Shown here: piece after piece, positions 30,296 through 63,662 of the stretch | How positions within the stretch are numbered: position 1 is the stretch's first letter | How the letters are laid out: each line of letters starts with the position of its first letter | DNA from: Nostoc sp. LPT | Lineage (GTDB): Bacteria > Cyanobacteriota > Cyanobacteriia > Cyanobacteriales > Nostocaceae | Direction: 5' to 3' | NCBI RefSeq assembly: GCF_017115165.1 | Contig: NZ_JABXKF010000090.1 | Span: 1 to 64,000, forward strand | DNA: 64,000 nucleotides | Translations under genes and position numbers: made by a program | The notes under the pieces: generated by a model | What the model was told of the DNA's origin: nothing | What the model saw: only the letters and a program-made list of their open reading frames with translations | The model's database searches: none

Positions 30296-33200
30296 TCACT
30301 GACCAATCTGAGCCAGCAAGTTACTCAAATTTTCTTGATTGATGTTTGCTGCCGAAAAGTCTGAAGGGGTATACTCTATTGCTTCTAGGGAGCGAGAATA
30401 GGTGATGAGAGATTTGAGGGCTTCGACAAAACTATGAGATAGTTTCTCTATAGTCTCGCGTCTATGCACATTTGTGCTGTAGCTAAATTCCAGTCTTAAC
30501 TGACCTTCTTCATTAACCCATGCGGTCACGCCTAGCAAATGAGAACTAGTTCCTTTTGGACTGTACATTGATCCAGTGGATTCTTCAGTCGGTCTGAGCA
30601 TAGAAGATTGATCAAAGCTTTTACCAAATTGACCAAGGTAGAGAAAAAATACCTCTGCTTGAGGAAGCGATCGCATTTTCTCTGTCAGTGTTGTATCCTC
30701 ACTAAGGTAGCGTAGCGCTCCATGATCAATGGTTCTACTAGAAATGCAACGAAACTGCTCTTTTACGGCTTTCAATGCCTCCCCTGGATTCTCAGCACCC
30801 TCTAAATCCAAAAGCACAGGATAAAGAGTAGTCAGCCAACCTACTGTCCGTGATATATCCACATTATCTATAGTTGTACTTGCATCTCGCGCATCTTCTT
30901 CGGTATTAAACAGTAAACATTTTATGCCTGTCCATTCTGTAAAAGCTTGTACAAGAGCAGTCAACAAAACTTCTTGTGTATTAGTTCGATAAACTGCTAG
31001 AACCTCCTGAAGTAATGCCTGAGTTTCTGTTTCGCTTAACGCTACTGAGACACTTTCACCTGATGCTACAGTGTTAATGCCTCCTGGATAATCGATTGGT
31101 AAGGGATAAACCTGTTCGTAACCTTTGCTGAGACAGGAATTTAGGTTTTTTTGCAACTCTACTGATTGAGCGTATTCCTTTAGTCGCTCAGACCACTGTT
31201 TGAAAGAGGTTGTTTTCTGCGGCAGTTGAATTGCTTTACCAAGTCTGAGCTGTTGATAAGTAGTCTGAAGATCCTCTATTAAGATTCGCCAAGAACCAAA
31301 ATCTACTGCCAAGTGGTGGATGATGATGAGCAAGCGGCTTGACTTATTGACACCCAAATCAAAAAGCACACCCCGCACAATTGGCCCATCTGATAAATTC
31401 AAACTAGCTTGTAGTTCCGTGGCGGTTGCTTCCATCAAAGATTTTTGAACATCAGGCGAAAACGCTGATAAATCTGTATGTGTAAGATTCACCTGTTTTT
31501 CTAAGTCAGTGCTCACCTGCTGCCAGCCATACTCAGAGGGGATAAACCGCAAGCGAAGTGCATCGTGATGTATAAATAAATGCTGCCATGCTTGTTCAAA
31601 CAAAGCCCGATCGAGAACTTGCATTACCTCTACAAAGAATGCCATGTTCCAGTGGTGTGGTTCTGATAAATTCTGTTCAAAGAACCAGTGCTGGATAGGT
31701 GTAAGAGGAAGCGAACCAGTTACTAAGCCTTGTTCAGCCTGGACAACTTGTTTTGTGGTGGTTACCTCTGCCAGTTCGGCGATTGTCTGATGCTCAAACA
31801 ATTGCTGAGGGGCAAGCCGATAACCTGCTTTAGCAGCTCTAGCACTGACTTGAATGCCAAGTACAGAATCTCCCCCTAACTCAAAAAAGTTATCGTCAAT
31901 ACCTACTTGCTCAATACCAAGGAGTTCTTGCCAGATATTGGCAATGGTTTGCTCTACCTCATTTCTAGGAGCAACATAGTCATTATCTAAATTAGGTCTT
32001 AAATAAAGTGAGGCGGAACTGGCTTTTTGTGCAACTTTAGAACCTTGACTAAATTCAAGTTGAATCCATCTTTTGATACTAACTTGTAAGTTTACTGTTG
32101 ATGTGACTAACTGACTAAATTTTCTCAAGGATAAGGCACGTTTAAAAACCTCCAGACCTTCTTGCTTTGTCATCATCGAATCTGCACCTTTGAGTGAGGT
32201 TACTGATTTTGAGGATTCTTGAGTAATCCAATCCCCATAATTGATACTCTGCCAGGAGAAAAGACTTGTTTGGTTATGTTTATGTACAAAAGCATCAGTA
32301 AATAGATGCGCTGCTGGATAAGCAGCCATGCCCATTACCCCTAAAACAGATGCTAATGACGATATTATTACGCAGAAATCTAGCTCTTTTCCTTGGAGGA
32401 TATTTTCTAATACAAATAATCCATAGCCTGTTGAGCTGAATTGACTTTCACACTCAGTTTTACTTATCTGTTGAATATTACTAAACAACTTTATCCCTGC
32501 TGCATGAATGACACCATCAATTTCACCAAAGCGGTTTGATGCTTGAGTCATTACTGCTTGCATTTGTTCGAGATTCGCAACATCGGCGCGGCAAATTAGA
32601 ACTTCACTACCCAATGTTTCTAATGCTTGCACTTTCTTGATTTTGCGACTGATATCATCGTTATCATCATGAATTGCTAGCCATTGCGACCAATCTTGTT
32701 TTGCAGGGAAACTGGAACGCAATGTCAGAATTAGCTTGGCGTGTGCTGTTTGGGCGAGATATTCTGCCAGCACTAAGCCAATATCTCCCAAACCACCAAC
32801 AATTAAGTAAACTCCTTCATCCCTGATGGGAATTGTTTCTTGATTTGGCTCTTCAATTTGTATTGGTTCAAAAGTTTGCACCCAACGATGTTTGCCACGG
32901 TAGGCAATCATATTCTCAGATGTTGTTTGAGTCAGTTCTGTTACGAGATGGTCTATGAGTTGACTGTTTTGGGATGTTATTGATTCAGGAATAACCACAT
33001 CAATGTTACGACAGGTGATGTTCGTATACTCTTGGGGAATCACTTTACAGATTCCCATGATAGTTGCCTTTTGCGGGCACAAGTTTTCGTCGCCGTTTAC
33101 CTCTTGCACATTGTTGGTAACAACTGAAATTTGGATAGTATCGGTAACTTCTTGTCTTCCCAACGCTTGTGCTAAGAAAAGTAGACTATAAAAACCATTA

Positions 33201-36200
33201 TTTTGACATTCTTCAAAGAACTGATGGGATGATTCTGGTTGTGGGTTGGGGATGAGACTCCAAAAATGAGCGAAATGCCATCCGGCACGCTCCGCGATCG
33301 CATTTGGTTGAAAATCCCATAGTTTCTTCAGCAAGGCATCATAGTCACTACTTGCTTGGGGATTTATTGCGTAAGAGCGATCGCCTAGTTGTGTAAACTG
33401 CTCTCCAACAGTCACACTAATCACATCATGTCCTGCTAATTGCAACTGTTTGACAACTTGTAAACCTACTGCATCAGTATCAATAAAGACTAAATAATTT
33501 AATTTTTGTGGTGATTTCGCTCCTATCTGTGGAGAACGTTTCCAAGAAGGAATGTAAAACCAGTCAGCAATATCCGGTTTTTTCTGTAATGCTTGCGGCG
33601 ATCGCATTGCCAAATTAGCTTCAGGATTAGCATCAATCCAGTAACGCTGAGGTTCAAAAGGATATGTGGGTAAGGGAAGGCGATCGCGTTGTTCATTAGC
33701 ATAAAAACCAGACCAGTCTACCTTTACCCCTGCCAGCCAAAGGCGACCCAATGTATTCATTAAAAAGGCGACATCTGACTGTTGCTCATAGGAATGCCGC
33801 AAGGAAGGGAGCATCACTGATTTGGCTCTCTCGTCACTTTCTAGACATTGCAGTGCGAAACTACTCAATGCCTGACCAGCGCCAACCTCCAATAAAATCG
33901 GATGATCTTTTTTCCACAACTCTTGCACCCCCGAAGCAAAGCGTACTGCTTGGCACAAATGCTTCACCCAATAACTGGGATCTGTTGCTTGGTCTGCTGT
34001 AATCCAAGTTCCCGTGACGTTGGATAAATAGGGAATTTTCGGTGGTTTAAGAGTGAATGTTTGCACTAAATTGTCAAAGGTAGGTGCGATCGCCTCCATC
34101 ATCACCGAATGAAAAGCATGAGAACTCTGTAAACGCTTCCCAACTAAACCTCTTTCACTCAATCGTCGTTCTACTTCCTCGATAGCATTTGTAGCACCTG
34201 CAATCACACACAACGATGAGCCGTTGATTGCAGATAGAGAAATCTTCTCATTCAAGAAGGGCTGTATTTCCTCCTCGGAAAGCCCAATTGCCAACATTGC
34301 TCCTTCAGGCAGATATTGAATCATTTGCGCTCTTTTCGCTACCAAAGTTAAAGTGTCTTCCAAAGACAAAACCTCGGCCAGACACGCTGCTACATATTCA
34401 CCGATGCTGTAGCCAATCATTGCCGTCGGACGAATCCCCCACGATATCCACAATTGAGCTAAAGCGTATTCAATAACGAAGATAGCTGGTTGGGTGAGAA
34501 AGGTTTGATTCAGCTTTTGAGTGGCGACATCTAACTGTTCTGTTCCCCGACCTAACATTTTTCGCAAATCTAGCCCAGCAGAGAGAGTGCTTGGTTTATT
34601 TCCATTCTCACTGTTTCTATTGGTATACAGAACATCTCGCAAATCAGTACCAAGGTGGGGTTTGAGGAGTTCGCAACATTGGTCAACACAGGCGCGAAAT
34701 GTTGGCTCAGTTTGGTAAAGTTCAAGAGCCATATTAATGTAGTGAGTTCCTAGTCCAGAAAACATGAAGGCAACAGGACGTTGTTGAGTTTTTTCAGTAC
34801 TGGTGAGAACTCGCTTTGGCTCTTGAAGTGCGTTGATAGCATCTTGAATATCCCGACAGACAACTGTGCGCCGATAGTCGAAAGTTCTCCGTCCAACCTG
34901 CAATGTGTAAGCCACATCGGCAAGGTTTGAATCGGGATATTCTTGGAAATAATTAGCTAGATTTGTGGTAGCCGTTTCCAGTGCTGAATCAGTTTTGGCA
35001 GATAGCATCAACAACTGCCAAGGACGAGAGGAACTAGAAGCTTCGACAACTGGGGCTTCTTCAACAATCAGATGGGCATTGGTTCCTCCAAGTCCAAAGG
35101 AACTAACTCCTGCACGTCGAGGAGTGCCATGCGTCTCCCATTCCGAAAGTGTGGTATTGACGTAGAAAGGACTGTTAGCAAAGTCAATTTCGGGATTAGG
35201 CGAAGTAAAGTGTAAGCTGGGTGGTATCTGTTTGTGCTTGAGGGCTAAGACGGTTTTGATTAATCCCGTCACACCAGCCGCAGTGTCCAAATGCCCAATA
35301 TTGGTTTTGACGGAACCAATGGCGCAGAATCCTTTCTTCTGGGTACTAGAGCGAAAAGCTTGTGTGAGGGCAGCAATTTCAATGGGATCTCCTAAGACTG
35401 TTCCTGTACCATGAGCCTCAATGTAAGTAATTGTCTCTGGTTCTACTTCGGCTATTACTTGGGCTGTTCTAATTACTTTTGCTTGGGTATCGATACGGGG
35501 TGCTGTGTAGCTGACCTTGAGTGAACCATCGTTATTGATGGCTGATCCTTTGATTACAGCATGAATCGTATCGCGATCGCTAAGAGCATCTTCTAATCGT
35601 TTCAATACCACAATGCCCACACCCTCACCGCCCACAGATCCTTTTGCTCTAGCATCAAAGGTACGGCAATGTCCGTCAGGAGACGCTATTCCTCCTTCTG
35701 TATACATGTATCCAGTTTTTCTAGTTGCACTGATAGCAACTCCACCAGCCAATGCCATATCACATTCACCATTGAGTAAGCTTTGGCAGGCTAAATGCAC
35801 AGCAACTAATGAAGTTGAGCAGGCAGTTTGCACAGCATAACTGGGACCTTCTAAGTTGAGTTTGTAAGAAACACGCGTGGTTAAATAGTCTTTATTACCT
35901 GCTATTGTGAGTTGCTGAGGATCGATAAAATTTCTGATATTTTGATTTAGATAAATATTAAGTAAGTAGCTGCTCAAACTAGAGCCACCATAAACACCAA
36001 CAGCACCTTTATAAGTTTGTGAATCGTATCCAGCACTTTCCAGCGCTGACCAAGCACACTCTAGAAAAATTCTGTGTTGCGGATCGGTAACTTCTGCTTC
36101 TCTAGGATTAAAGCCAAAAAATGAAGCGTCAAATAATTCTGCGTCTTCTAATATAGCGTGTGCTTTTACATAGTTAGGGTCATTTAATATCGATGAACTT

Positions 36201-36370
36201 ATACCTGATGACAATAATTCTTCATCACTGAAAAAAGAGATTGACTCTCTTCCCTGTTGGATATTTTCCCAAAATTCATCAATGTTTTTAGCTTTCGGGA
36301 AACGTCCTGTTAAACCTATAATTGCGATTTCTGAACCATTTATTGAATTTGTCACTGTTGGAATACTCAT
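30296..36370 (-). CDS. PKS KS-AT-KR-ACP carrying a C-terminal epimerization-like domain
   Basis: A 2024-residue protein. The KS is intact (QTACSTSLVA, EAHGTGT, NIGHLD). The AT (about 550-880) departs from consensus: GLGTH for GQGSQ and GYSIGEY for GHSIGEY, though HAFHS remains, plus an extra stretch of roughly 20 residues after the first motif. The KR has GGLGDIG and Ser/Tyr, but the Asn of YxxxN is His (YPAAHLF), so activity is doubtful. The carrier is DNFFELGGDSV. After it comes a full condensation-superfamily domain (about 1570-2010) of the E type (LTPIQHWFFEQ, RTVGWLTTLYP), but with HHLAVDF for HHxxxDG and no EGHGRE. The partner downstream begins with a DCL domain. An E-like domain on a PKS module is unusual. 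Confidence 0.93.
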   Translation of the reverse strand: MSIPTVTNSINGSEIAIIGLTGRFPKAKNIDEFWENIQQGRESISFFSDEELLSSGISSSILNDPNYVKAHAILEDAELFDASFFGFNPREAEVTDPQHRIFLECAWSALESAGYDSQTYKGAVGVYGGSSLSSYLLNIYLNQNIRNFIDPQQLTIAGNKDYLTTRVSYKLNLEGPSYAVQTACSTSLVAVHLACQSLLNGECDMALAGGVAISATRKTGYMYTEGGIASPDGHCRTFDARAKGSVGGEGVGIVVLKRLEDALSDRDTIHAVIKGSAINNDGSLKVSYTAPRIDTQAKVIRTAQVIAEVEPETITYIEAHGTGTVLGDPIEIAALTQAFRSSTQKKGFCAIGSVKTNIGHLDTAAGVTGLIKTVLALKHKQIPPSLHFTSPNPEIDFANSPFYVNTTLSEWETHGTPRRAGVSSFGLGGTNAHLIVEEAPVVEASSSSRPWQLLMLSAKTDSALETATTNLANYFQEYPDSNLADVAYTLQVGRRTFDYRRTVVCRDIQDAINALQEPKRVLTSTEKTQQRPVAFMFSGLGTHYINMALELYQTEPTFRACVDQCCELLKPHLGTDLRDVLYTNRNSENGNKPSTLSAGLDLRKMLGRGTEQLDVATQKLNQTFLTQPAIFVIEYALAQLWISWGIRPTAMIGYSIGEYVAACLAEVLSLEDTLTLVAKRAQMIQYLPEGAMLAIGLSEEEIQPFLNEKISLSAINGSSLCVIAGATNAIEEVERRLSERGLVGKRLQSSHAFHSVMMEAIAPTFDNLVQTFTLKPPKIPYLSNVTGTWITADQATDPSYWVKHLCQAVRFASGVQELWKKDHPILLEVGAGQALSSFALQCLESDERAKSVMLPSLRHSYEQQSDVAFLMNTLGRLWLAGVKVDWSGFYANEQRDRLPLPTYPFEPQRYWIDANPEANLAMRSPQALQKKPDIADWFYIPSWKRSPQIGAKSPQKLNYLVFIDTDAVGLQVVKQLQLAGHDVISVTVGEQFTQLGDRSYAINPQASSDYDALLKKLWDFQPNAIAERAGWHFAHFWSLIPNPQPESSHQFFEECQNNGFYSLLFLAQALGRQEVTDTIQISVVTNNVQEVNGDENLCPQKATIMGICKVIPQEYTNITCRNIDVVIPESITSQNSQLIDHLVTELTQTTSENMIAYRGKHRWVQTFEPIQIEEPNQETIPIRDEGVYLIVGGLGDIGLVLAEYLAQTAHAKLILTLRSSFPAKQDWSQWLAIHDDNDDISRKIKKVQALETLGSEVLICRADVANLEQMQAVMTQASNRFGEIDGVIHAAGIKLFSNIQQISKTECESQFSSTGYGLFVLENILQGKELDFCVIISSLASVLGVMGMAAYPAAHLFTDAFVHKHNQTSLFSWQSINYGDWITQESSKSVTSLKGADSMMTKQEGLEVFKRALSLRKFSQLVTSTVNLQVSIKRWIQLEFSQGSKVAQKASSASLYLRPNLDNDYVAPRNEVEQTIANIWQELLGIEQVGIDDNFFELGGDSVLGIQVSARAAKAGYRLAPQQLFEHQTIAELAEVTTTKQVVQAEQGLVTGSLPLTPIQHWFFEQNLSEPHHWNMAFFVEVMQVLDRALFEQAWQHLFIHHDALRLRFIPSEYGWQQVSTDLEKQVNLTHTDLSAFSPDVQKSLMEATATELQASLNLSDGPIVRGVLFDLGVNKSSRLLIIIHHLAVDFGSWRILIEDLQTTYQQLRLGKAIQLPQKTTSFKQWSERLKEYAQSVELQKNLNSCLSKGYEQVYPLPIDYPGGINTVASGESVSVALSETETQALLQEVLAVYRTNTQEVLLTALVQAFTEWTGIKCLLFNTEEDARDASTTIDNVDISRTVGWLTTLYPVLLDLEGAENPGEALKAVKEQFRCISSRTIDHGALRYLSEDTTLTEKMRSLPQAEVFFLYLGQFGKSFDQSSMLRPTEESTGSMYSPKGTSSHLLGVTAWVNEEGQLRLEFSYSTNVHRRETIEKLSHSFVEALKSLITYSRSLEAIEYTPSDFSAANINQENLSNLLAQIGQ
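33272..33295. repeat. 24-bp repeat-like insertion inside the PKS KR-linker coding region
   Basis: Relative to the three other PKS proteins in the window (patterns PNAIVHLWS, PKTIVHLWS), this gene has 8 extra residues, ERAGWHFA, between PNAIA and HFWS. The DNA (GCCATCCGGCACGCTCCGC followed by GATCGC) resembles Nostoc short palindromic repeat sequence. The insertion is in frame. Confidence 0.5.
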
Positions 36371-36576: not shown

Positions 36577-37584
36577 TTATGAAGTGTTAACTAAGTACTT
36601 AAATAAGTCATCAATGACTGCGTTCATTGCTAAAACATCAAAAGCGGACCAATAGTCTAAATCTACAATATAGACTTGATTTTGTTGAACTACCTTCAGT
36701 TTTTGCCACAAAGGAGATTGTTGCAGCTTTTCTAAAGCCTGTTCATAAGCATTATTTTTCCGAGTACAAAGGAATAAAATATCACCATCGATTTCGGATA
36801 AACGCTCGTAGGAAATATTAGGCATTACCCAAAAATCTCCCCTCTGTGCAGGTGGGCGTTTTAGTCCGATATCATCTAGAACTACGCTAGTAGAAAACTT
36901 TTTCCCATAAGTATACACTCCTCCAATTTCTGGATACGAAGTAGCAATAGATACTTGTATCTGATGGCGGCGATCGCCCAAGGCTTGTTTAAGTTGTTCA
37001 ATTCGTTGCCAATATTCGTCGATTAACTGTTTTTTCTCCTGTTCCTTATCGAAGATCTTGGCAACATCTTCTAAATGTTTTTGCCAGGGAGGAGGTGGAG
37101 CAGAAACATCGATGACAACTGTGGGTGCTATCTTAGATAGCTGCGTATAGATATCCTGAAATTGGAACCGCTTAATCGACAAAATTAAATCGGGTTTTAA
37201 TAGGAGAATCTTTTCTAAACTTGGTTGCTCGTAGGTTCCAACAGATTCAACTCCATCTGCTTTGCTTTGAAGATATTCTGGGAAAGATTTATCTAGACTC
37301 CGTGTATATCCAATGGGTTTGATACCCAATGCTAAGGTGCTACAGAAAGTACCCTTCCATAGAGTCACAACTCGTTGAGGGTTGAGAGGAATGCACGTTT
37401 CACCCATTGCATGTTGCACGATTCTGCAAGAGGCTTGAGATGCTTCTGATGAAGCAGGCGTTGTACCCCGCTCAATCGCCCTGCTACTACACGCTGAGAC
37501 GATCGCGATTATGAGTAGTGATAACAATAGCTGTTGCTTTACCCCCCTCAATCTCGCCTGATAAGGGTGTGGGGAAGTTGGCAT
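36577..37584 (-). CDS. FecB-like iron-siderophore ABC transporter substrate-binding lipoprotein
   Basis: A periplasmic Fe(III)-siderophore-binding lipoprotein. A signal peptide with positive residues (RLRGVKQQ) and a hydrophobic core ends in the lipobox IVSAC. The mature part has the two-lobe class III binding protein pattern (NPQRVVTLW, VGTYEQPSLEKILLLKPDLIL, LAMNAVIDDL). It would hand the ferric ligand to an ABC importer that is not in the window. The track start at 37698 adds 38 residues that overlap, in another frame, a DUF559-like remnant and a G-rich repeat. The ATG at 37584, with GGGAGGG about 6 nt upstream, gives a normal lipoprotein leader and is preferred. Its position just after the TonB receptor, inside the NRPS cluster, supports uptake of the cluster's own product. 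Confidence 0.88.
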   Translation of the reverse strand: MPTSPHPYQARLRGVKQQLLLSLLIIAIVSACSSRAIERGTTPASSEASQASCRIVQHAMGETCIPLNPQRVVTLWKGTFCSTLALGIKPIGYTRSLDKSFPEYLQSKADGVESVGTYEQPSLEKILLLKPDLILSIKRFQFQDIYTQLSKIAPTVVIDVSAPPPPWQKHLEDVAKIFDKEQEKKQLIDEYWQRIEQLKQALGDRRHQIQVSIATSYPEIGGVYTYGKKFSTSVVLDDIGLKRPPAQRGDFWVMPNISYERLSEIDGDILFLCTRKNNAYEQALEKLQQSPLWQKLKVVQQNQVYIVDLDYWSAFDVLAMNAVIDDLFKYLVNTS

Positions 37585-37602
37585 CGATTCCCTCCCCTTA
37601 CC

Positions 37603-37625
37603 AAGGGTAGGGCTAGGGTGGGGTC
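37603..37625. repeat. G-rich 23-bp repeat, copy 1
   Basis: AAGGGTAGGGCTAGGGTGGG plus GTC. It matches 37730-37752 at 20 of 23 positions. Such G/C-rich runs flank many intergenic regions in Nostocales. Confidence 0.5.
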
Positions 37626-37726
37626 GATTGACGCAACTGACGAATCGTCTCAGGGATCGCCTCCAATAACTCATCCAGTTGTTGATCCACCTGCTCATTC
37701 GTAAACCTCACTACACAAATTCCCTT
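37613..37726 (-). pseudogene. C-terminal remnant of a DUF559-like protein
   Basis: A 37-codon open stretch on the minus strand, in a different frame from the FecB ORF, reads GICVVRFTNEQVDQQLDELL followed by EAIPETIRQLRQSTPP and a TAG stop. This resembles the C-terminal beta-strand and helix of DUF559 (PD-(D/E)XK-like) proteins of cyanobacteria. No N-terminal part is present; the sequence is bracketed by two G-rich repeat copies. It probably arrived with the repeats. The identification is from memory of the family. Confidence 0.4.
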
Positions 37727-37729
37727 TGC

Positions 37730-37752
37730 AAGGGCAGGGCTGGGGAGGGGTC
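37730..37752. repeat. G-rich 23-bp repeat, copy 2
   Basis: AAGGGCAGGGCTGGGGAGGG plus GTC. It overlaps the stop codon of the TonB receptor and forms a direct repeat with 37603-37625. Confidence 0.5.
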
Positions 37753-40426
37753 AAAGCTCAAAGGAAATCGTCCCCTGCACCGTCAACGGATCACCCCGAA
37801 AAACTCGAAACCTATTGAAAGAAGTATCAAAGTAATCGACATCAAATAAATTCCTAAAATTAAGGGCAGCGCGAAACCGATGGCGCTTGTAAAAAATCGC
37901 AGCATCTGTCCTCAGATAGCTGGGTAGTTGAAAAGTATTTAATGTATCCCCTGGCCGTTCTCCGACAAAGAATAATCCCACGCCAGCGCCGAACCCTTGC
38001 AAAGTACCCCGTTGAAATTCATAGCTTGTCCACAGGTTAAAGGTATTTGCAGGGACATTACGAAAAGGAAGACCTATGGGAAGCGTGTTGTCCTCAGTAA
38101 CTTTTGCATCGTTATAGGCATAGCCCGCAATGATGTTCCATCCCGGCAAAATCTCTCCTTCAAGGGTCAGTTCAACACCTCGGCTGCGCTGCTCACCCGT
38201 CTGAATCGAAAAGCCTGGTGGTACATTGGGTCTCTCGTCAGCCGTCAAAACATTGGTACGGGTCAGATCGTAGAGAGCCAGAGTTGCTGAAAATCGGTCA
38301 TTCAAATCTGCCTTGACCCCAACTTCATATTGGGTGCCGCGCTCCGGTTGAAATACACCATCATCAAAGCTGGTGCCAATCGTTGGGGTAAATGAGCGAC
38401 TGTAGCTGGCATAGAGTGAAATTGGCTTAACTGGCTGATAGACAATACCGACACGAGGGCTAAATGCATTGCCAGACTGACTTGTTTGTGTATTAGCGAG
38501 CCGATCCTCGTCAGTTTGACTAAAAGTATCAAACCGCACGCCCAGCAGCAGCTTTAAATTTTCAGCCAGTGTTATCTGGTCTTGAACATAAATGCCCAGT
38601 GCATCTATTGTGCTAAAATCATCAGTACTGAAAGGATCATCACCAATAGGCTGACCATATACAGGATTGAATAGGTCAATTGGAGATGCCTGAAAAGTAG
38701 ACCTAGCTTGTCCGAGTTGCCTCCTAGTGAGATTAATGCCTGTTACCAATTGATGACCAATGCTACCCGTAGAAAACTTACCAACAGCATAGGTGTCAGA
38801 GTTCAAAAATCCGCCGTAATAGTCATCATTATCAGAAAAGCTTCGGCTCAGAGTCCGGTTATCGTCAGCTAAGGCGGTACCGAAGGTAAATCTCCTATGT
38901 TGCCCAGTTTGCGTAAATCTCAAGGCATTTCGTAGCTGCCAATTTTCGCTAAAGCGATGTTCGAGGTCATAGCCAAGTCGAATCGAATACGAACTTTCGA
39001 TATCATCCCGCTCACCCACATTCCGGTTACGTGGTATTTCTCCATTTGGATTTGGCAACACTGTTCCCACAAGCGGGAGACCAGAGGATTGATCGGCAGA
39101 TTGTGGTCGATCAACATATTCGGCTGCTAGAGTTAATTTTGTGCGATCGCTAATCTGCCAAGTGAAAGTAGGTGCCACAAAGTATCTCTGTGCGTCGTAG
39201 AAATCAAAGAAACTTTCTGTAGTTTGAGCTGCCAGGTTCAGTCTGTACAGTACAGTTCGGCTGTCATTGAGCGGTCCGGAAAGGTCAATAGCACCGCGAT
39301 AAAAGTTGAAACTACCCGCAGAAGCTGACAACGAATAGTAGGGTTCACTCAATGGCTGTTTGGTTACATAGTTAACAGATCCTCCTGGCGCAGCTTCACC
39401 ATAGAGAACGGAGGAGGGTCCTCTGAAAACCTCAATCCGTTCGATCCCTGCCGTCTCAAAGCCAATTATACTATCACCTGTACTTTCGCTCAACCCATTC
39501 CTCAAGACATTATTGCCAGAAGAAAAACCTCGGAGGAAAACAGTTGAATCAAACACTGATTTGGAGGTAGTTCCAAATCCTACACCAGGTACATTTCTGA
39601 GTGCTTCAACTACACTAGTGACGTTTTGATCCCGTAGCACCTGTTGAGGTATAACCTGAATCGATTGGGGAATATCGCGCAGGGGTGTGTCGGTTCGGGT
39701 ACCTACACTGGTATTAGGTACACGATACCCATCTTCCTCACCCGTCACGACTAATTCAATCGGGTCATCCGCTTGTGCCGATGGTGTTTCCTGGGGTGTT
39801 TCATTCGCTGGCTGCTCAGGTTTCGGCTGTTGTGGTGGCTGCATTGCAGTTGTAGCAGCTGTAAAACCAATAATCAGCCCTTCATCCCCATCAAACAACT
39901 CCACAACTGGCAATCCCGCCTCACCCGCCACTGTCACCCGAATAGTATTGGCATCCAGATTTATGACAGTTATCTCAGTAATACCCTCAACTGGGTTTTG
40001 GGAACGGAATGTGAACGAATCACCACTGGGTAAACGCAATTGAGCATTAGGAATATCAGCAATAAAGTTATTATCAGCACTGCGATTGGTGATTTGGAGT
40101 TGTTGTCCTTGAGTTGTCTGTAAAATCACCTCCACACCTTTATCAGTGGGATTAGCTTTCACCCCAGTCACCTGGATAACATCTCCTTGGGAAGGGGGAT
40201 TAGTTGGTGTTGGCGATTGCACTAGCATTTGGGCGCTAGTGCTGGGACGCTCGATCTCACTGAGTTGGCGAATCTCTCTAATTGAATGGGAATTACGTAG
40301 TACCGATGCCACAGATTTACTCTGTATTTCTGACTTGGGTAGTTCTTGAGCAGTTGCGCTCATTGCATACCACAACCAAACAGAACTCGTCACTAATAAA
40401 ATTTTCGATAACTTCTTTGTTCCCAT
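37751..40426 (-). CDS. TonB-dependent siderophore receptor with AMIN domain
   Basis: An 891-residue outer-membrane receptor. A signal peptide (KILLVTSSVWLWYAMSATAQ) is followed by a cyanobacterial AMIN domain (about 80-190, VTGVKANPTDKGVEVIL), a TonB box-like IELVVTG near 225, a plug domain (TPLRDIPQSIQVIPQQVL, IERIEVFRGPSSVLYGEAAP, GGSVNYVTKQP) and a 22-strand barrel ending in GTISFEL. The overall form is that of FhuA-type ferric-hydroxamate/siderophore receptors. It follows the NRPS at 40594 on the same strand after a 167-bp gap and precedes the FecB-like gene. Regulation by Fur is likely from the family, but I could not point to a convincing Fur box. Confidence 0.95.
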   Translation of the reverse strand: MGTKKLSKILLVTSSVWLWYAMSATAQELPKSEIQSKSVASVLRNSHSIREIRQLSEIERPSTSAQMLVQSPTPTNPPSQGDVIQVTGVKANPTDKGVEVILQTTQGQQLQITNRSADNNFIADIPNAQLRLPSGDSFTFRSQNPVEGITEITVINLDANTIRVTVAGEAGLPVVELFDGDEGLIIGFTAATTAMQPPQQPKPEQPANETPQETPSAQADDPIELVVTGEEDGYRVPNTSVGTRTDTPLRDIPQSIQVIPQQVLRDQNVTSVVEALRNVPGVGFGTTSKSVFDSTVFLRGFSSGNNVLRNGLSESTGDSIIGFETAGIERIEVFRGPSSVLYGEAAPGGSVNYVTKQPLSEPYYSLSASAGSFNFYRGAIDLSGPLNDSRTVLYRLNLAAQTTESFFDFYDAQRYFVAPTFTWQISDRTKLTLAAEYVDRPQSADQSSGLPLVGTVLPNPNGEIPRNRNVGERDDIESSYSIRLGYDLEHRFSENWQLRNALRFTQTGQHRRFTFGTALADDNRTLSRSFSDNDDYYGGFLNSDTYAVGKFSTGSIGHQLVTGINLTRRQLGQARSTFQASPIDLFNPVYGQPIGDDPFSTDDFSTIDALGIYVQDQITLAENLKLLLGVRFDTFSQTDEDRLANTQTSQSGNAFSPRVGIVYQPVKPISLYASYSRSFTPTIGTSFDDGVFQPERGTQYEVGVKADLNDRFSATLALYDLTRTNVLTADERPNVPPGFSIQTGEQRSRGVELTLEGEILPGWNIIAGYAYNDAKVTEDNTLPIGLPFRNVPANTFNLWTSYEFQRGTLQGFGAGVGLFFVGERPGDTLNTFQLPSYLRTDAAIFYKRHRFRAALNFRNLFDVDYFDTSFNRFRVFRGDPLTVQGTISFEL

Positions 40427-40593: not shown

Positions 40594-43500
40594 TTAAATA
40601 TTTTCAAGTGATTTCATTTTTTGCAGACGCTTTCTTTGTTGAGCTTTACCATCAGCAATTTTTTCTGTGACAACATCTACTACACCAGAAAATAGTTTTC
40701 CATTTTTGACTTGATTAAAATAATCTACTAAAGAGCTTATGGTCGGATATCTAAACAGGTCGAGGATAGATAAATCACTCTGAAATACTTCACGCAATTT
40801 GCTATGAACCTGAACCAAAAGCAGCGAATGACCACCCAGTTCAAAGAAGTTATCATGAATTCCTACGTTCTCAACATTCAGCACTTCTTGCCAAATATTG
40901 GCAATAGTTTTTTCTACATCAGTTTGGGGTGGCTGATAAATTGCCTCCAATTGTGGACGTGCTGTATCAGGTGCTGGTAAAGCTTTGCGGTCAACCTTAC
41001 CATTAGGCGTGAGTGGTAGTGTCTCCAATGTGACAAAAGCTGCTGGCACCATATAGTTTGGTAGTTTCGATTCTAAGAAGTGACGCAGTTCCGTAATTGC
41101 CAATGTTTGTTCATGTTGTGGAACTACATAAGCTACTAAACTTTGAGTATGTGCTGTCACGACCGTTTCTCGAACTACTGGGTGTTGGCTAATGAGTGCT
41201 TCAATTTCTCCCAACTCAATGCGGAAACCACGGAGTTTAACTTGGTGGTCAATTCGACCAATGTATTCTATTTCTCCACTTGTTAAATAGCGTGCTAGGT
41301 CTCCTGTTTTATAAAGACGCGCAGATGGTTTATCACTAAAGGGATTAGGAATGAATTTCTCTGCTGTTAAGTCGGGACGGTTTAAATAACCTCTACCTAT
41401 TCCCACACCACCAATATAAAGTTCACCTGGTACGCCGAAAGCAACAGGATTAAGATACTTATCAAGCAAATAAATCTGGATGTTTGCAATTGGGTGACCA
41501 ATGGGAACTGTCTTTTGGTTATTAACACGATCTTGACACTGCCAAAAAGTCACATCTACAGCCGCTTCTGTTGGACCGTAGAGATTATGCAGTTGGGCAT
41601 CAAGTCGATTAAAAAAGCGCTGTTGAAGTTGAACTGGCAATGCCTCACCACTTACTATTACCCGCACTAGAGACTGACATTTTTCTAACCCTTCTGTTTC
41701 AACAAACACTTGCAGCATTGATGGAACAAAATGTAAGGTTGTAATTTGTTGCTGTAAAATCAAGTTGACTAAATAGTTGGGTTCTCGATGACCTTCTGGT
41801 TGAGCTACTACTAAACGCGCACCTGTCATCAACGGCCAGAAAAATTCCCAGACTGACACGTCGAAACTGAAGGGGGTTTTCTGCAAAACACTATCTGCTG
41901 TTGTTAATTGGTAAGTGTCTTGCATCCACAGTAAACGATTGCAGATTCCCCGATGGGTATTCATTGCACCTTTTGGTTTACCTGTAGAACCGGAGGTGTA
42001 GATGACGTAAGCTAGGTGATCGACTGTGATCTTGCACGCCGGATTTCTTGGGTTTTCATTGGCGATTAGTTCCCAATTGCTATTGATGCAAATTACTTGA
42101 GCTTTGTGATTTGGTAGACTTTCTACTAGATATTGTTGTGTTAACAATACGCCTGGTTGGGAGTCTGCTAACATATAAGCCAAGCGTTCTTTGGGATAAC
42201 TAGGGTCTAGTGGCACATATGCACCACCTGCTTTCAGGATGGCTAATAGTCCGATGACCATAGAGAGCGATCGCTCTACACAAATTCCCACCAATACCTC
42301 TGGTTTTACTCCCAATGAACGCAAGTAATGTGCCAATTGGTTAGCTTTCGTGTTGAGTTCACAGTAGGTTAATTGTTCCGATTCAAATACTACTGCTACT
42401 GCATCAGGTGTGCGTTCTACTTGCGCCTCGAATAACTGATGAATGCAGTGTTCTTGAGGATATTCAACTTCTGTATTATTCCACTCCAGCAGCAACTGAT
42501 GCTGCTCAGAGTTACTTAAGAGTGCTAACTCTGACAACCGCTGCTGTGGATTAGCAACAATTCCAGAGAGCAACGTTTGCAAATGACCCACCATCCGGCT
42601 GATTGTGCTTTGCTCAAATAAATCAGTATTGTATTCTATACTTCCAACTAACTTAGAGTCTATTTCACTCATGTTTAGGGTCAAATCAAACTTAGCACTA
42701 TCACTATTGCTTTGTAAAGAAGTTAAAGTCAAACCAGGCAACTCTAAGGCAGACATCGGTGCATTCTGAAGCACAAACATCACTTGAAACAGTGGTGTAT
42801 GGCTTAAGTTTCGCTGTGGTTGCAGTTGCTCAACTAACAACTCAAAGGGCAAATCCTGATGTGCATAAGCTCCTAATGCTACTTCCCGTACCCGTTTTAG
42901 TAGTTCCTGAAAGCTGGGATTTCCTGCTAAGTTAGTTCTCAGTACTAAAGTATTGACAAAAAATCCAATTAACCCTTCTATCTCCGCTCGGTTCCGATTG
43001 GCGATGGGTGAACCAACTACAATATCTTCTTGCCCTGTGTAACTCCATAGCAGTGTTTGGAAACCTGCCAGCAACGTCATAAATAAAGTACTTCCCTGCT
43101 CCTGGCTTAATTTATTCAGAGCAACAGAGAGTTGCTTGGATAACTCAAATGAGTAAGTTGCACCCCGGAATTTCTGAATTGCTGGTCTGGGATGGTCAGT
43201 GGGTAACTCTAATACTTCTGGCGCATTTTCTAAGTGCTTTCGCCAATAAGATATCTGAGTTTCGAGTACTTCTGTTTGCAACCATTGTCGTTGCCAAACC
43301 GCGAAGTCAACATACTGTATTGGCAGTTCAGTTAAGGGTGAGGGTTGTTCATTACAAAAGGCTTGATAAAGTGTTGCCAACTCTTGCACCAGCACACCGA
43401 TTGACCAACCGTCAGAGACGATGTGGTGCATTGTCAGTAGTACGATGTGTTCTTGGTCATTAAGACGTAATAGTTTTACTCTCAGCAGCAAGTCGCTCTT

Positions 43501-46500
43501 GAGATCAAAGGGTTGTTGTGCTTCTTGTGTAGCCTGTTGTTTAATTTCGGCTTCTTGTTGGTCTGAAGGTAGTTCGCTAATATCGAATATTGACAAGGTT
43601 AGGGGCTTTTTTTCAGAGATGACAGCTATTGCTTGCCCTTGTGTTGTTTGGAAATTGGTTCGCAGCGTTTCATGACGACTGATAATTTCGTTAAAACTTT
43701 GTTGTAATGCTTCTACATTTAATTTTCCTTGTAGGCGAACAGCAGCAGGAATATTGTAAAATGGGCTGTCTGGTTCTAATTGGGCTAGGAACCATAATCT
43801 TTGTTGGGCAAATGATAACGGTAATTCTGGCGATCGCTTAATCCACTCAATCTTCGTCGATTCAATTCCTGAGTCTACCTTAATTGCTTTTTCAATTTCT
43901 TTTGCTAATCCAGCTATTGTTGGTTTTTCAAATAAGTAACGTAAAGGAAGTTCGATTTGAAATACTTGTCGGATTTGGGAAATCACGCGAGTTGCGATTA
44001 ACGAGTGCCCTCCTAATTCAAAGAAATTATTATTAATACCTACTTTGTCTATACCAAGTATTTCTGCCCAAACACCTGTTAATAAATTCTCAATTGGTGT
44101 GGAAGGAGCAAGCATCTGAGATGATGATACCTGTGTCAAGTCAGGTATAGGTAGCGCTTTACGGTCAACTTTCCCATTGGGTGTAAGTGGTAGTGCCTCC
44201 AATGTCACAAAAGCCGATGGCACCATGTAGTTTGGTAGCTTTGACTCCAGAAAGCACCGCACTTCAGAAATTGCCAATGTTTGCTCTTTTTGGGGGATTA
44301 CATAAGCGACTATTTGTTGAGAATCTGCTTGTGAACAATGAACTGTAACTACGCTTTCTTGGACTCCTGGGTATTGGCTAATCAGTGTTTCAATTTCTCC
44401 CAACTCAATGCGGAAACCACGGAGTTTAACTTGGTGGTCAATTCGACCAATGTATTCTATTTCTCCACTTGGTAAATAGCGTGCTTTATCTCCTGTTTTA
44501 TAAAGACGCGCAGATGGTTTGTCACTAAAGGGATTGGGGATAAATTTCTCTGCTGTTAGTTCAGGACGGTTTAAGTAACCTCGCGCTAGTTGGTCACCAC
44601 TTACATATATCTCACCAGGTACACCTACAGGAACAGGTCGCTGGTTATCATCCAGTATGTATATCTGCGTATTAGCAATTGGATGACCAATTAAGACAGA
44701 TGTTGATAGAGCTGCTTGCGGGCTAATGCTATAACAAGTGACATCCGCAGATACCTCTGACGAACCGTAAAGATTTAATAAGGTACTATCAGGCAAACTC
44801 TGCCGAAATTGCACTGGCAGATCAGTAGATAGTGCTTCACCACTGCTAATCCACAATTTTAACTTGGGTAACTGTAGCTGTAAAATCTCACACGTACTCA
44901 ACAGTACACGTAGTAATGAAGGAACAAGGACTACCCGTGTAACATGATTGTGGGAAAGAGTGGTGATAAACTGTTGTGGGTCTTTAACAACAATATCGGG
45001 GACAATTACTGTAGTTACCCCTTGTAGTAATGGTCCAAAGATTTCCCATACTGAATCCACAAAGTTTAAAGATGTTTTCTGGCAACAAATTTCTTGCTCT
45101 ACAAAAGGATAATTCTGCCACATCCACTCAAAGCGATTGATAGCACCCTTATGCAAACCAAAAACTCCCTTTGGTTCTCCTGTAGAACCAGAAGTGTAGA
45201 TAACATAAGCTAAATTGTCAGCTTCCGAACTACTGATAGGGTTGTCTTGCTTTTGCTGGGTAATGATGTCGAAGTCGTTGTCTAGGCAAACTACCTGTGC
45301 TTTGTGTTCAGGAAGTTTCTCTATGAGGTGTTGGTGCGTTAGTAATACTGATACTTGAGTATCCTGCAATATAAAGGATAGACGTTTTTGGGGATAATTA
45401 GGGTCTAGTGGGATGTATGCACCACCTGCTTTGAGGATAGCTAATAGACCAATGACCATAGAGAGCGATCGCTCTACACAAATGCCCACCAACACCTCTG
45501 GTTTTACTCCTAGCTTTTGCAAGTAATGCGCTAGTTGATTTGCTCTGGTGTTAAGCTCCCAATAAGTTAGCTGTTCATCTTCAAAGATTACGGCAACAGC
45601 ATCAGGTGTGCGTTCTACTTGAGCCTCAAACAACTGATGAATAGATTGTTGTTGGGGATACTCAACCAACTGATGAATAGATTGTTGTTGGGAATACTCA
45701 ACAGAGGTATCATTCCAGTCCACCAGTAATACCTGCTGCTGGGCTGGTGTTAAAAGCGGCAAGTTCGAGAGTCTTTGGTCAGGATTAGCAACAATACCTT
45801 CTAGCAAAGTTTGAAAACAGCTCAACATTTGGGTAATGGTAACTTCATCAAATAGAGCCACATTGTACTCCATAGTTCCAATTAGCCCTTGCTCAGTTTC
45901 CACCATTTCCATAGCTAGGTCAAACCTCGCTGTTTCTTTTTCAAACTCCAAAGGACTAACGCTTAAACCTGGTAGTTCGAGAGTTGTTCTTAGGAAATTC
46001 TGAAGTTGAAACATCACCTGAAACAAAGGTGTATGGCTCAAATGCCGCTCTAGCTTGAGTTCCTCCAGGATTTGCTCGAAAGGCAGATCCTGGTGAGCAT
46101 AAGCTTCTGAAGCAACTTGACGCACTCTTGCCAAAAGCTCCCGAAAACTGGGATTGCCTCCAAAGTAGGTACGTATTACCAAGGTATTGACAAAAAATCC
46201 AATTAACCCCTCAGTTTCAACCCGATTGCGCCCGGAGACAGTAGTGCCAACTAGGATGTCTTCATGCTCAGCATAACGGTGAAGCAACGTCTTAAACGCC
46301 GCTAGCAACGTCATGAATAGTGTCACTCTCTCCTGCTGACTAAGAGCCTTAAGGGCCTCGGTTAGGCTTTTAGAAAGTTGCAAAAACTGCGTTGCACCTT
46401 GGTAGGTCTGAATAACCGGACGTGGATGGTCAGTAGGTAATTCTGTCACGGAGGGAGCACTAGCCAACTGCTGCTTCCAATAAGCTAGTTGCGTCTCTCG

Positions 46501-47193
46501 TCCCTCTTGTTGGAACCACTGGCGCTGCCAAAGAGCAAAGTCCACATACTGAATGGGGAGTTCCGGAAGCAAAACAGGGCGATCGCTGTTAAAATCTTTG
46601 TAAAGTGCTGACAGTTCCTGAATCAATATACTAAGCGACCAGCCATCACAAACAATGTGGTGGATTACGAACAGCATCACATACTCAGTTTTGCCCAATT
46701 GCAGTAGCATCACTCGCAGTAACGGACCTTTAGTTAAATCAAAGGGACGCTGAGCTTCCTCGGTAGCCAGTTGCTGAACTTTACGTTCCCGCATCGTTGG
46801 CGGCAACTCTTGGATATCTACCACTGGTATTGTCAAGGTTAAAGTTGGGGCAATTACTTGCAGCGATTGACCATCGACTGTAACAAATGTAGTGCGTAAG
46901 GCTTCGTGACGCCTGACGATTTCGTTGATGCTACGCTCCCACGTTGACACGTTGAGTTGACCCTTCAGGCGCATGGCTTGAGCAATGTTATAGGCAGCGT
47001 TATCAGGGTTTAATTGGTAGAGCAACCACAGTCGCTTCTGGGCAAACGATAGGGGAAACGAATTGGATTCTCGACTTTGGGGTGCGATCGCTATTGGTGA
47101 GAAGGGATTTCCTTTTTTTTCATTCAACTTTTGCAGCAGAAGCTTGCGTTTTTCTGGAGAAAGATTGGCGATGCGTTGAGAAAGTTCACTCAT
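40594..47193 (-). CDS. Bimodular NRPS C-A(beta-Ala)-PCP-C-A(Ser)-PCP
   Basis: About 2199 residues. Module 1: C with HHIVCDG; A pocket V-D-W-V-I-S-L-A-D-K, identical to the beta-alanine code as I know it; PCP NNFFELGGHSL. Module 2: C with HHIVSDG; A pocket D-V-W-H-I-S-L-V-D-K, close to the serine code DVWHLSLIDK; PCP DNFFELGGHSL; then a basic tail (KAQQRKRLQKMK). The track starts at a TTG (47211). The ATG at 47193 overlaps the PKS stop (ATGAGTGA) and has AAGGGG just upstream, so translation is coupled to the PKS. A 36-bp tandem duplication lies in the C-A linker of module 1. No epimerase is present. Confidence 0.94.
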   Translation of the reverse strand: MSELSQRIANLSPEKRKLLLQKLNEKKGNPFSPIAIAPQSRESNSFPLSFAQKRLWLLYQLNPDNAAYNIAQAMRLKGQLNVSTWERSINEIVRRHEALRTTFVTVDGQSLQVIAPTLTLTIPVVDIQELPPTMRERKVQQLATEEAQRPFDLTKGPLLRVMLLQLGKTEYVMLFVIHHIVCDGWSLSILIQELSALYKDFNSDRPVLLPELPIQYVDFALWQRQWFQQEGRETQLAYWKQQLASAPSVTELPTDHPRPVIQTYQGATQFLQLSKSLTEALKALSQQERVTLFMTLLAAFKTLLHRYAEHEDILVGTTVSGRNRVETEGLIGFFVNTLVIRTYFGGNPSFRELLARVRQVASEAYAHQDLPFEQILEELKLERHLSHTPLFQVMFQLQNFLRTTLELPGLSVSPLEFEKETARFDLAMEMVETEQGLIGTMEYNVALFDEVTITQMLSCFQTLLEGIVANPDQRLSNLPLLTPAQQQVLLVDWNDTSVEYSQQQSIHQLVEYPQQQSIHQLFEAQVERTPDAVAVIFEDEQLTYWELNTRANQLAHYLQKLGVKPEVLVGICVERSLSMVIGLLAILKAGGAYIPLDPNYPQKRLSFILQDTQVSVLLTHQHLIEKLPEHKAQVVCLDNDFDIITQQKQDNPISSSEADNLAYVIYTSGSTGEPKGVFGLHKGAINRFEWMWQNYPFVEQEICCQKTSLNFVDSVWEIFGPLLQGVTTVIVPDIVVKDPQQFITTLSHNHVTRVVLVPSLLRVLLSTCEILQLQLPKLKLWISSGEALSTDLPVQFRQSLPDSTLLNLYGSSEVSADVTCYSISPQAALSTSVLIGHPIANTQIYILDDNQRPVPVGVPGEIYVSGDQLARGYLNRPELTAEKFIPNPFSDKPSARLYKTGDKARYLPSGEIEYIGRIDHQVKLRGFRIELGEIETLISQYPGVQESVVTVHCSQADSQQIVAYVIPQKEQTLAISEVRCFLESKLPNYMVPSAFVTLEALPLTPNGKVDRKALPIPDLTQVSSSQMLAPSTPIENLLTGVWAEILGIDKVGINNNFFELGGHSLIATRVISQIRQVFQIELPLRYLFEKPTIAGLAKEIEKAIKVDSGIESTKIEWIKRSPELPLSFAQQRLWFLAQLEPDSPFYNIPAAVRLQGKLNVEALQQSFNEIISRHETLRTNFQTTQGQAIAVISEKKPLTLSIFDISELPSDQQEAEIKQQATQEAQQPFDLKSDLLLRVKLLRLNDQEHIVLLTMHHIVSDGWSIGVLVQELATLYQAFCNEQPSPLTELPIQYVDFAVWQRQWLQTEVLETQISYWRKHLENAPEVLELPTDHPRPAIQKFRGATYSFELSKQLSVALNKLSQEQGSTLFMTLLAGFQTLLWSYTGQEDIVVGSPIANRNRAEIEGLIGFFVNTLVLRTNLAGNPSFQELLKRVREVALGAYAHQDLPFELLVEQLQPQRNLSHTPLFQVMFVLQNAPMSALELPGLTLTSLQSNSDSAKFDLTLNMSEIDSKLVGSIEYNTDLFEQSTISRMVGHLQTLLSGIVANPQQRLSELALLSNSEQHQLLLEWNNTEVEYPQEHCIHQLFEAQVERTPDAVAVVFESEQLTYCELNTKANQLAHYLRSLGVKPEVLVGICVERSLSMVIGLLAILKAGGAYVPLDPSYPKERLAYMLADSQPGVLLTQQYLVESLPNHKAQVICINSNWELIANENPRNPACKITVDHLAYVIYTSGSTGKPKGAMNTHRGICNRLLWMQDTYQLTTADSVLQKTPFSFDVSVWEFFWPLMTGARLVVAQPEGHREPNYLVNLILQQQITTLHFVPSMLQVFVETEGLEKCQSLVRVIVSGEALPVQLQQRFFNRLDAQLHNLYGPTEAAVDVTFWQCQDRVNNQKTVPIGHPIANIQIYLLDKYLNPVAFGVPGELYIGGVGIGRGYLNRPDLTAEKFIPNPFSDKPSARLYKTGDLARYLTSGEIEYIGRIDHQVKLRGFRIELGEIEALISQHPVVRETVVTAHTQSLVAYVVPQHEQTLAITELRHFLESKLPNYMVPAAFVTLETLPLTPNGKVDRKALPAPDTARPQLEAIYQPPQTDVEKTIANIWQEVLNVENVGIHDNFFELGGHSLLLVQVHSKLREVFQSDLSILDLFRYPTISSLVDYFNQVKNGKLFSGVVDVVTEKIADGKAQQRKRLQKMKSLENI
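45631..45702 (-). repeat. 36-bp in-frame tandem duplication in an NRPS linker
   Basis: Two adjacent 36-bp copies (45631-45666 and 45667-45702) differ at one base and encode VEYSQQQSIHQL then VEYPQQQSIHQL at the start of the A domain (normally a single EYPQ...IHQLFEAQ). No other A domain in the window has the duplication, so it is a recent event. Confidence 0.9.
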
Positions 47194-56000: not shown

Positions 56001-56382
56001 GACGCATCAATGGTGGTTGCGTAATTTCAAAGCCACCAGAGCGATCGCTCTCTAAGAAAAGTTCTAACTTTTGTTGTTGTTCATCTGAAGAGAGATGCTG
56101 CCAATTATACTCCTGCCAAGGTAGCACCACCTGTCGATGCACAACTTGCACTGGTTCTTTTAAGCCTTCCCAAACAAAGCAGGTTCGTAGAATTGAATGT
56201 CGTTCTATAATATGCTGCCATGCGCGATGGAATGCTGTAATGTTAAGTTTTCCTTGGAGAGTCCAGCTAAACTGTTCAAAATAGTTGCCAGATTTGGGGG
56301 CTGCAAGACTATGGTAGAGAATGCCCTGCTGCATGGGCGAGAGCGGATAAAAATCTTCAATATTTTTGTTTTTTACGCCCAT
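53095..56382 (-). CDS. NRPS module C-A(Thr)-PCP
   Basis: A 1095-residue NRPS. The C domain opens with DFYPLSPMQQGILYHSL, the DCL type that accepts a D-configured donor, and has HHHLLLDG. The A pocket is D-F-W-N-I-G-M-V-H-K, the standard threonine code. The PCP is DNFFELGGHSL, followed by a basic tail (GKDRIKQFLTISKKIK). The start ATG follows the upstream stop by one base, with AGGAG 9 nt before it. The upstream gene ends in an epimerization domain, so an E/DCL pair joins the two proteins and the order Asn to Thr is well supported. Confidence 0.96.
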   Translation of the reverse strand: MGVKNKNIEDFYPLSPMQQGILYHSLAAPKSGNYFEQFSWTLQGKLNITAFHRAWQHIIERHSILRTCFVWEGLKEPVQVVHRQVVLPWQEYNWQHLSSDEQQQKLELFLESDRSGGFEITQPPLMRLTLVQLSDTSYNFTWSHHHLLLDGWSVAIIFKEVFACYKVFSNGEDVHLEPIRPYRDYIVWLQQQNLSKAETFWRETLKSFTTPTQLWADQGTRKSLTPEDDYAEQKIQLSALTTAALQSIAQQHQLTLNTLVQGAWALLLSHYSGEEDVVFGAVASGRPPTLAKAESMVGLFINTLPVRVKVSAKEFLLPWLQKIQTQLVEARQYEHSPLVKVQGWSEVPKGFALFESIVVFENYLVDASVKERDINFEIEDFHGFERTNYPVTLTVIPGKELLLKITYNDSDRFDTITQMLGHLQTLLEGMVTNPQQRLCELSLLTETERHQLLVEWNDTEVEYPQEQCIHQLFEAQVERTPDAVAVVFEDEQLTYCELNTKANQLAHYLRSLGVKPEVLVGICVERSLSMVIGLLAILKAGGAYIPLDPSYLKQRLAFILKDAQISVLLTQQHLKENLLQHQTQVICLDTDWSIIAEQNSQNLINQCTSDNLAYIIYTSGSTGQPKGVLVNHSNVVRLLAATQSWYNFNQDDVWTLFHSIAFDFSVWELWGALLYGGKLVVVPYWLSRSSEEFYKLLLTQQVTILNQTPSAFCQLIQVEESLGNINKLSLRKVIFGGEALQLESLRPWFERHGDQFPQLVNMYGITETTVHVTYRPLRMVDLEVRSGSVIGRPIDDLQVYLLDKYQQPVPIGVPGEMYIGGAGVVRGYLNRPELTPLRFIPNPFSNKPDARLYKSGDLGRYLPNGDIEYLGRIDHQVKVRGFRIELGEIEALITQHPAVRETVVVLSEESVDSKRIVAYVVPQKQQTLAIPELRTFLESKLPNYMMPAAFIILEALPLTPNGKLDRKALPAADTARPDLEAVYQPPQTEIEQTIADIWQKVLNIENLGIHDNFFELGGHSLLLIQVHNKLQKIFSLNLLILDLFRYPTISLLADFLSRANNNEPLSFDQTDTRTQQLTQGKDRIKQFLTISKKIK

Positions 56383-63655: not shown

Positions 63656-63662
63656 AATATTA

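Follow-up and report, generated by a model that had tools for sequence, protein, structure and literature searches.

A TonB-dependent receptor and a siderophore-type binding lipoprotein within a probable hybrid NRPS-PKS metallophore cluster of Nostoc sp. LPT

Two genes of siderophore-uptake type, encoding a TonB-dependent receptor and a substrate-binding lipoprotein, lie in contig NZ_JABXKF010000090.1 of Nostoc sp. LPT between a nonribosomal peptide synthetase (NRPS) gene at 40594-47211(-) on one side and a polyketide synthase (PKS) gene at 30296-36370(-) on the other. Do they take up the product of the assembly line around them, or are they there by accident? The stretch analysed, here called the window, comprises positions 1-64000 of the 85149-base contig, and its left edge is the contig edge. 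The cluster very probably encodes a metallophore pathway, with the receptor and lipoprotein as its import arm, since it fits a published transporter criterion that is strengthened here by conservation in relatives. We consider it quite likely, from sequence comparison, that the pair is dedicated to importing the cluster's own metallophore, a hybrid NRPS-PKS product that is most likely a lipopeptide Fe(III) siderophore.

Receptor and binding protein

36577-37698, minus strand: PF01497 ferric-siderophore-type substrate-binding lipoprotein, 373 aa (Peripla_BP_2, 100.5 bits)
37751-40426, minus strand: TonB-dependent siderophore receptor with AMIN, Plug and barrel domains, 891 aa (TIGR01783)

The two open reading frames (ORFs), which the first-pass annotation had placed on one strand between NRPS and PKS genes, are confirmed at these positions, 52 bp apart. 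Plug and barrel of the receptor are both complete (PF00593 252 bits, Plug 84, AMIN 56); the protein scores 434 bits against the siderophore receptor model TIGR01783, well past its curated cut-off of 223.5, and the enantio-pyochelin receptor and FhuA head its PDB matches. The binding protein had been described as a FecB-like lipoprotein. It is indeed a PF01497 lipoprotein, with a VSA-C lipobox at about residues 67-70 and YfiY as its top PDB match (9e-42), but none of its best NCBIfam models, which describe binding proteins of the Fe-dicitrate (FecB), enterobactin and FhuD types, reaches its cut-off, and the protein is better read as a generic lipoprotein for ferric siderophores than as FecB proper. 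Its true start is probably internal to the annotated ORF, because homologues align only from about residue 50 onward. The segment 37580-37750, which covers its N-terminus and the preceding gap, resembles a C-rich interspersed repeat (CCCCTCCCCAGCCCT...), so that the annotated start is probably misplaced.

Recurrence of the transport genes

A single adjacency of receptor and cluster is weak evidence, because the 8.6 Mb host genome carries about 25 receptors and about 8 PF01497-type binding proteins. The published rule, by which two of PF00593, PF01032 and PF01497 in an NRPS region indicate a nonribosomal peptide metallophore biosynthetic gene cluster (BGC), has a precision of 93%, and most of its false positives involved transporters that homologous clusters had not retained (PMC12971057). 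Here PF00593 and PF01497 are both above the gathering cut-off and embedded in the cluster, and the transporters are conserved across homologous clusters. Co-occurrence was counted in 33 named cyanobacterial genomes carrying, as a marker, PanP, an aspartate decarboxylase also encoded in the window; a gene was scored when it lay on the same contig and no more than 60 kb from PanP. A PF00593 receptor does so in 27 of the 33 genomes, where 2.9 would be expected from receptor density (P ~3e-26, a value that ignores contig ends and receptor clustering), and several of these genomes own merely 2-4 receptors in total; a PF01497 protein is likewise present in at least 17. Moreover, the same slot, between the PKS gene with the epimerase-like domain and an NRPS gene, is occupied in three relatives: in N. 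mirabile CHAB5784 (receptor 75%, binding protein 68%), in Nostoc sp. CCCryo 231-06 (52% and 45%) and in Nostoc sp. PA-18-2419, which has the receptor alone (57%). Since it recurs across relatives, the association is non-random; the pair as a chance neighbour was rejected on the co-occurrence count.

The assembly line and its predicted product

The cluster spans some 80 kb (contig positions ~1-83135) and thus exceeds the window. All genes from FAAL to the O-methyltransferase are on the minus strand, the IS66 transposase at the contig edge being excepted. Apart from the transport pair, the window contains:

965-2023, minus strand: O-methyltransferase
2126-3022, minus strand: SDR oxidoreductase
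3082-4500, minus strand: MATE exporter
4478-5524, minus strand: sucrase/ferredoxin-like protein, a possible redox partner
5877-6416, minus strand: TauD-family dioxygenase, truncated (179 aa)
6479-7861, minus strand: cytochrome P450
7895-9271, minus strand: cytochrome P450
9290-13387, minus strand: terminal NRPS, C-A(beta-Ala)-T-TE
13648-14415, minus strand: SAM methyltransferase
14557-19212, minus strand: PKS, KS-AT-KR-ACP, the KR without a GxGxxG cofactor motif
19248-23927, minus strand: PKS, KS-AT-KR-ACP
24067-25707, minus strand: PanP, a pyridoxal phosphate (PLP) aspartate 1-decarboxylase (TIGR03799, 616.5 bits; cut-off 606.1)
25848-30278, minus strand: NRPS, C-A(Gly)-T, its A domain interrupted by a luciferase-like monooxygenase of family TIGR04020
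30296-36370, minus strand: PKS, KS-AT-KR-ACP with a C-terminal epimerase-like domain (HHLAVDFGSWRIL)
40594-47211, minus strand: NRPS, C-A(beta-Ala)-T-C-A(Ser)-T
47186-53092, minus strand: PKS, KS-AT-cMT-KR-ACP
53095-56382, minus strand: NRPS, C-A(Thr)-T
56384-60991, minus strand: NRPS, interface-like C (degenerate motif LNLPALYADAT)-A(Asn)-T-E
61073-63697, minus strand: C domain fused to a TauD (SyrP-like) amino-acid beta-hydroxylase, Fe ligands conserved
63698-64000, minus strand: FkbH-like protein, C-terminal part; the gene reaches contig position 64768

To the right of the window the cluster goes on with the rest of FkbH, an acyl-CoA dehydrogenase, an ACP and a 3-hydroxyacyl-CoA dehydrogenase, which together we take to be the gene set for hydroxy- or methoxymalonyl-ACP, and then with genes for a carbamoyltransferase and a PKS, a split cupin gene and, ending at 83135, the gene for a FAAL-ACP-C-A-MT-T protein.

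The A-domain codes, extracted by alignment to GrsA, are VDWVISLADK (beta-Ala) and DVWHISLVDK (Ser) in the NRPS at 40594, DFWNIGMVHK (Thr) at 53095, DLTKIGEVGK (Asn) at 56384, DILQMGMIWK (Gly) at 25848 and VDWIISLANK (beta-Ala) at 9290, in the protein that also carries the TE; the first A domain of the line, encoded in 76563-83135, has the code DAEDIGTIV, without residue assignment. The Asn, Thr, Ser and beta-Ala units of the first-pass annotation are thereby borne out, as are its hydroxylase and its MATE exporter. PanP, whose score above the TIGR03799 cut-off agrees with two beta-Ala modules in the line, is inferred to supply beta-alanine. The KR at 14557 is probably inactive and the beta-keto group kept, because the cofactor motif is missing. 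The terminal "C" domains at 56384 and 30296 were considered as release or condensation domains, a reading rejected since both show epimerase (E)-type motifs, while the N-terminal C domain at 56384 appears to be of the interface type and would pair with the TauD at 61073.

From gene content, homologies and the repeated co-occurrence of receptor and cluster, a pathway can be proposed in which product, ligands, metal and direction of transport are all predicted and the order of assembly follows from collinearity. FAAL would load a fatty acid as starter, to be followed by an N-methylated residue and by polyketide units, one of them probably from hydroxy- or methoxymalonyl-ACP. The next units would be beta-hydroxy-Asn, Thr, a methylated ketide, beta-Ala, Ser and a ketide; then Gly, perhaps alpha-oxidised by the inserted luciferase-like oxygenase; and last, two further ketides and a final beta-Ala before release by the TE. 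The product would be exported by the MATE protein, and its metal complex would re-enter through the TonB receptor and be passed to the lipoprotein, with import completed by an ABC permease encoded elsewhere.

A few other features of the cluster were noted. The truncated TauD-family gene at 5877-6416 is probably a pseudogene here, because the corresponding proteins of Nostoc sp. PA-18-2419 and N. mirabile reach 289 aa and 299 aa. Outside the window, the JmjC/cupin-like gene at contig positions 75543-76538 is interrupted by one in-frame TAA. The IS66 transposase (94-954) adjoins the cluster at the contig end and may mark a recombination or assembly breakpoint. TIGR04020, the family of the monooxygenase, is named after Atu3671; the same enzyme also sits within a 1485-aa NRPS of Nostoc sp. 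PA-18-2419 and is a stand-alone gene in Gloeocapsopsis, and it is present in 10 of the 33 genomes, most relatives being without it.

Relation to cyanochelin B and other metallophores

Cyanochelins combine two modified aspartates with a phenolate/azole head. The reference used was the cyanochelin B cluster on plasmid 2 of Leptolyngbya sp. NIES-3755 (AP017310.1), whose product is an iron siderophore (PMC12628792). Its likeness to the window lies mainly in one unit: the C-TauD protein at 61073, with the Fe-binding residues of the TauD kept, shares 48% identity with the end of LEP3755_65800, and the NRPS at 56384 shares 46% with LEP3755_66280 over 1540 aa, with the degenerate interface motif reading LNLPSLCADAT there and LNLPALYADAT here. 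In addition, the monooxygenase at 25848 is 53% identical to that of the Ox-bearing PKS LEP3755_65820, the PKS at 30296 matches the E-bearing LEP3755_66280 at 51% over 557 aa, and receptor and binding-protein genes adjoin the assembly line in both clusters. The receptor and binding protein of cyanochelin B are only ~31% identical to those of the window and lie at the cluster edge, with FecCD permeases; its plasmid has no PanP match and its A domains no beta-Ala code; and its annotated cluster lacks the FkbH/acyl-CoA dehydrogenase set, the carbamoyltransferase, the MATE exporter and the P450. Conversely, its Asp code, Cys module and Phe module are missing from the window cluster, in which a single Asx module and no Cys or heterocyclisation module was found. 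The first-pass statement that the predicted building-block order does not match schizokinen/synechobactin, anachelin or cyanochelin is right in that the cluster is not a cyanochelin, membership being rejected on the Asn code and the missing head, but a relation to cyanochelins does exist, in that the C-TauD/interface-A-T-E unit, the monooxygenase and the arrangement of binding protein and receptor are homologous.

Although the window TauD is homologous to the cyanochelin enzymes, it is paired with an Asn-coded A domain: both beta-OH-Asp modules of cyanochelin B read DLTKIGHVGK (His, Asp), one position away from the DLTKIGEVGK (Glu, Asn) of the window, and with this code the canonical beta-OH-Asp ligand is not predicted. 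One possible alternative, on the doubtful side, is that the module in fact loads Asp, or that the amide is hydrolysed, to give the conventional ligand of a cyanochelin variant. The homology of hydroxylase, interface domain and E domain to those of cyanochelin B fits this, as does Nostoc sp. UHCC 0926, which has one Asn-coded and one Asp-coded module; yet the window, CCCryo 231-06, LEGE 12452 and Scytonematopsis all have the Asn code without change, so that it looks selected, and the cluster has just one module of this type and lacks the phenolate and heterocycle modules of cyanochelins.

Fatuamide A (Leptolyngbya sp.), which prefers copper, is likewise the product of a cyanobacterial hybrid PKS/NRPS metallophore cluster with receptor and binding protein (PMC11877528). 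The fatuamide A/B cluster shares a TauD dioxygenase with the window, and its salicylate/KAS III/Cys head resembles the one in the relative from Lyngbya sp. CCAP 1446/10. FAAL, PanP, the alkoxymalonyl set and a beta-Ala-TE module are not among the parts listed for fatuamide, and the window for its part has no salicylate synthase. Fabrubactin of Agrobacterium fabrum, also a FAAL-associated siderophore, has alpha-hydroxycarboxylate ligands assigned to the flavin monooxygenase FbnE (PMC12971057). The window monooxygenase, a member of TIGR04020, may be a counterpart of FbnE; no Dmaq chromophore genes were seen in the window cluster.

Sister clusters

The PanP search located 37 named loci in all, with orthologous clusters in Nostoc sp. 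UHCC 0926, Gloeocapsopsis dulcis, Lyngbya sp. CCAP 1446/10, Argonema antarcticum and others. In PA-18-2419, N. mirabile CHAB5784, CCCryo 231-06, UHCC 0926 and G. dulcis the tail genes are mostly 50-91% identical to those of the window and collinear, with a receptor in each, whereas the head modules and the receptor sequence differ. Nearly constant among relatives are the beta-Ala-TE module (64-87% identity), kept in every relative examined in which the cluster end is covered, and the P450; the alkoxymalonyl set, MATE and SDR genes are frequent. The window itself is a mosaic, its tail nearest Nostoc sp. PA-18-2419, its centre nearest CCCryo 231-06 (C-TauD 87%, FkbH 90%, acyl-CoA dehydrogenase 93%) and its front PKS nearest UHCC 0926 (89%).

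As to chelator genes, a salicylate synthase lies near PanP in 6 of the 33 genomes and a TauD hydroxylase in 11 different ones. The salicylate synthase of the Lyngbya cluster, with PDB matches MbtI and Irp9, stands alongside an aryl-AMP ligase, a KAS III-like protein and a Cys-coded module; the Gloeocapsopsis cluster has an AspH-type hydroxylase in place of either. PanP (about 62-64% identity) was also observed close to TauD, no more than a few kb away, in Microcoleus and further genomes, so that cyanobacterial metallophores of the beta-hydroxy-amino-acid kind may commonly contain beta-alanine.

The clusters thus look modular, with a conserved tail (beta-Ala-TE, PanP, alkoxymalonyl-ACP genes, P450, MATE) and variable heads that appear interchangeable within this cyanobacterial family, of either beta-hydroxy-amino-acid or salicylate-Cys type. 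Two complete relatives are plasmid-borne (Nostoc sp. UHCC 0926, NZ_CP117772.1; G. dulcis, NZ_CP119970.1), a location that would help head-tail recombination and spread. It may tentatively be proposed, though we hold it to be unlikely as a whole, that this is a recombining family in which one tail is joined to unrelated heads (salicylate-Cys, beta-hydroxy-Asn/Asp and others), receptors are exchanged at a fixed slot, and the tail itself forms an undescribed metal ligand. The tail would in that case comprise the hydroxymalonyl-type extender genes, PanP, the PKS with inactive KR, the beta-Ala-TE module and the P450, and its ligand might be, for example, an alpha-hydroxy-beta-keto group or a beta-Ala-derived cyclic beta-diketone.

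Metal, regulation and transport

Several observations weigh against a dedicated iron-siderophore import arm. Co-occurrence gives neither the direction of transport nor the metal, and no FecCD permease gene is found in the cluster. With an Asn code in place of Asp, the sequence does not point to a set of three classical bidentate ligands. The BGC-linked receptors are polyphyletic, so there is no co-descent with the assembly line: the receptor tree pairs only the window protein with that of N. mirabile (100/100) and places the remaining BGC receptors elsewhere, and co-evolution of receptor and assembly line was rejected accordingly. A search with the E. coli-type pattern and 7-1-7 motifs detected nothing resembling a Fur box ahead of the receptor gene (11/15, equalled by 52% of shuffles), ahead of FAAL or in other intergenic regions, while two other receptors of the host genome reach 14/15; the missing site is weak evidence, because cyanobacterial Fur sites are poorly defined. 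The slot is thus kept among relatives, while the receptor in it has been exchanged. A host-genome receptor outside the cluster (contig C56:35825-38434) is sister (100/100) to the one inside the PA-18-2419 cluster, which suggests that a receptor can enter a cluster of this kind and leave it again.

A preference for copper (PMC11877528) and indifference to iron supply (PMC12210259) are both possible among cyanobacterial metallophores, and it has to be asked whether the present one serves mainly copper, zinc or another metal, for acquisition or detoxification. We regard this as unlikely. The copper preference of fatuamide A, whose cluster carries the same two transport genes, lusichelin production, which is not increased under iron limitation (PMC12210259), the lack of a Fur box near the cluster and the Cys modules of the salicylate-type relatives, suited to soft metals, all speak for it; on the other side, the receptor and binding protein belong to iron-siderophore families, cyanochelin B, with the same hydroxylase unit, is an iron siderophore (PMC12628792), and Cys and heterocyclisation modules are absent from the window cluster. 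Least probable among the alternatives is that the pair are passengers, a generic uptake system importing xenosiderophores from within a cytotoxin or antibiotic cluster, for although the genome is rich in both protein types, receptor/binding-protein pairs are found elsewhere without obvious BGC context and the receptors of the family are polyphyletic, this reading is opposed by the 27/33 co-occurrence, by retention of the receptor in the same slot in three relatives, by a salicylate synthase or TauD in 17/33, and by non-overlapping genes on the assembly-line strand. Of the first-pass suggestion, an undescribed NRPS-PKS siderophore or metallophore, the metallophore cluster stands, strongly backed by transporter co-conservation and the chelator genes of the sister clusters, while iron specificity is putative, no Fur box having been detected near the cluster promoters.

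Significance

No product matching the cluster was found in the literature on PanP, methoxymalonyl or FAAL siderophores of cyanobacteria (MIBiG being outside the comparison), and the cluster type is apparently, if provisionally, undescribed so far. Few cyanobacterial siderophores have been characterised, and clusters of this type are present in dozens of genomes, among them those of Nostoc, Scytonema, Tolypothrix, Calothrix, Brasilonema and others. Their shared tail links salicylate-type with beta-hydroxy-amino-acid-type metallophores, and PanP adjoining a beta-Ala-TE module is a marker by which further such clusters can be found. With receptor swaps at a fixed slot, receptor-ligand specificity and cheating become testable inside one natural family.

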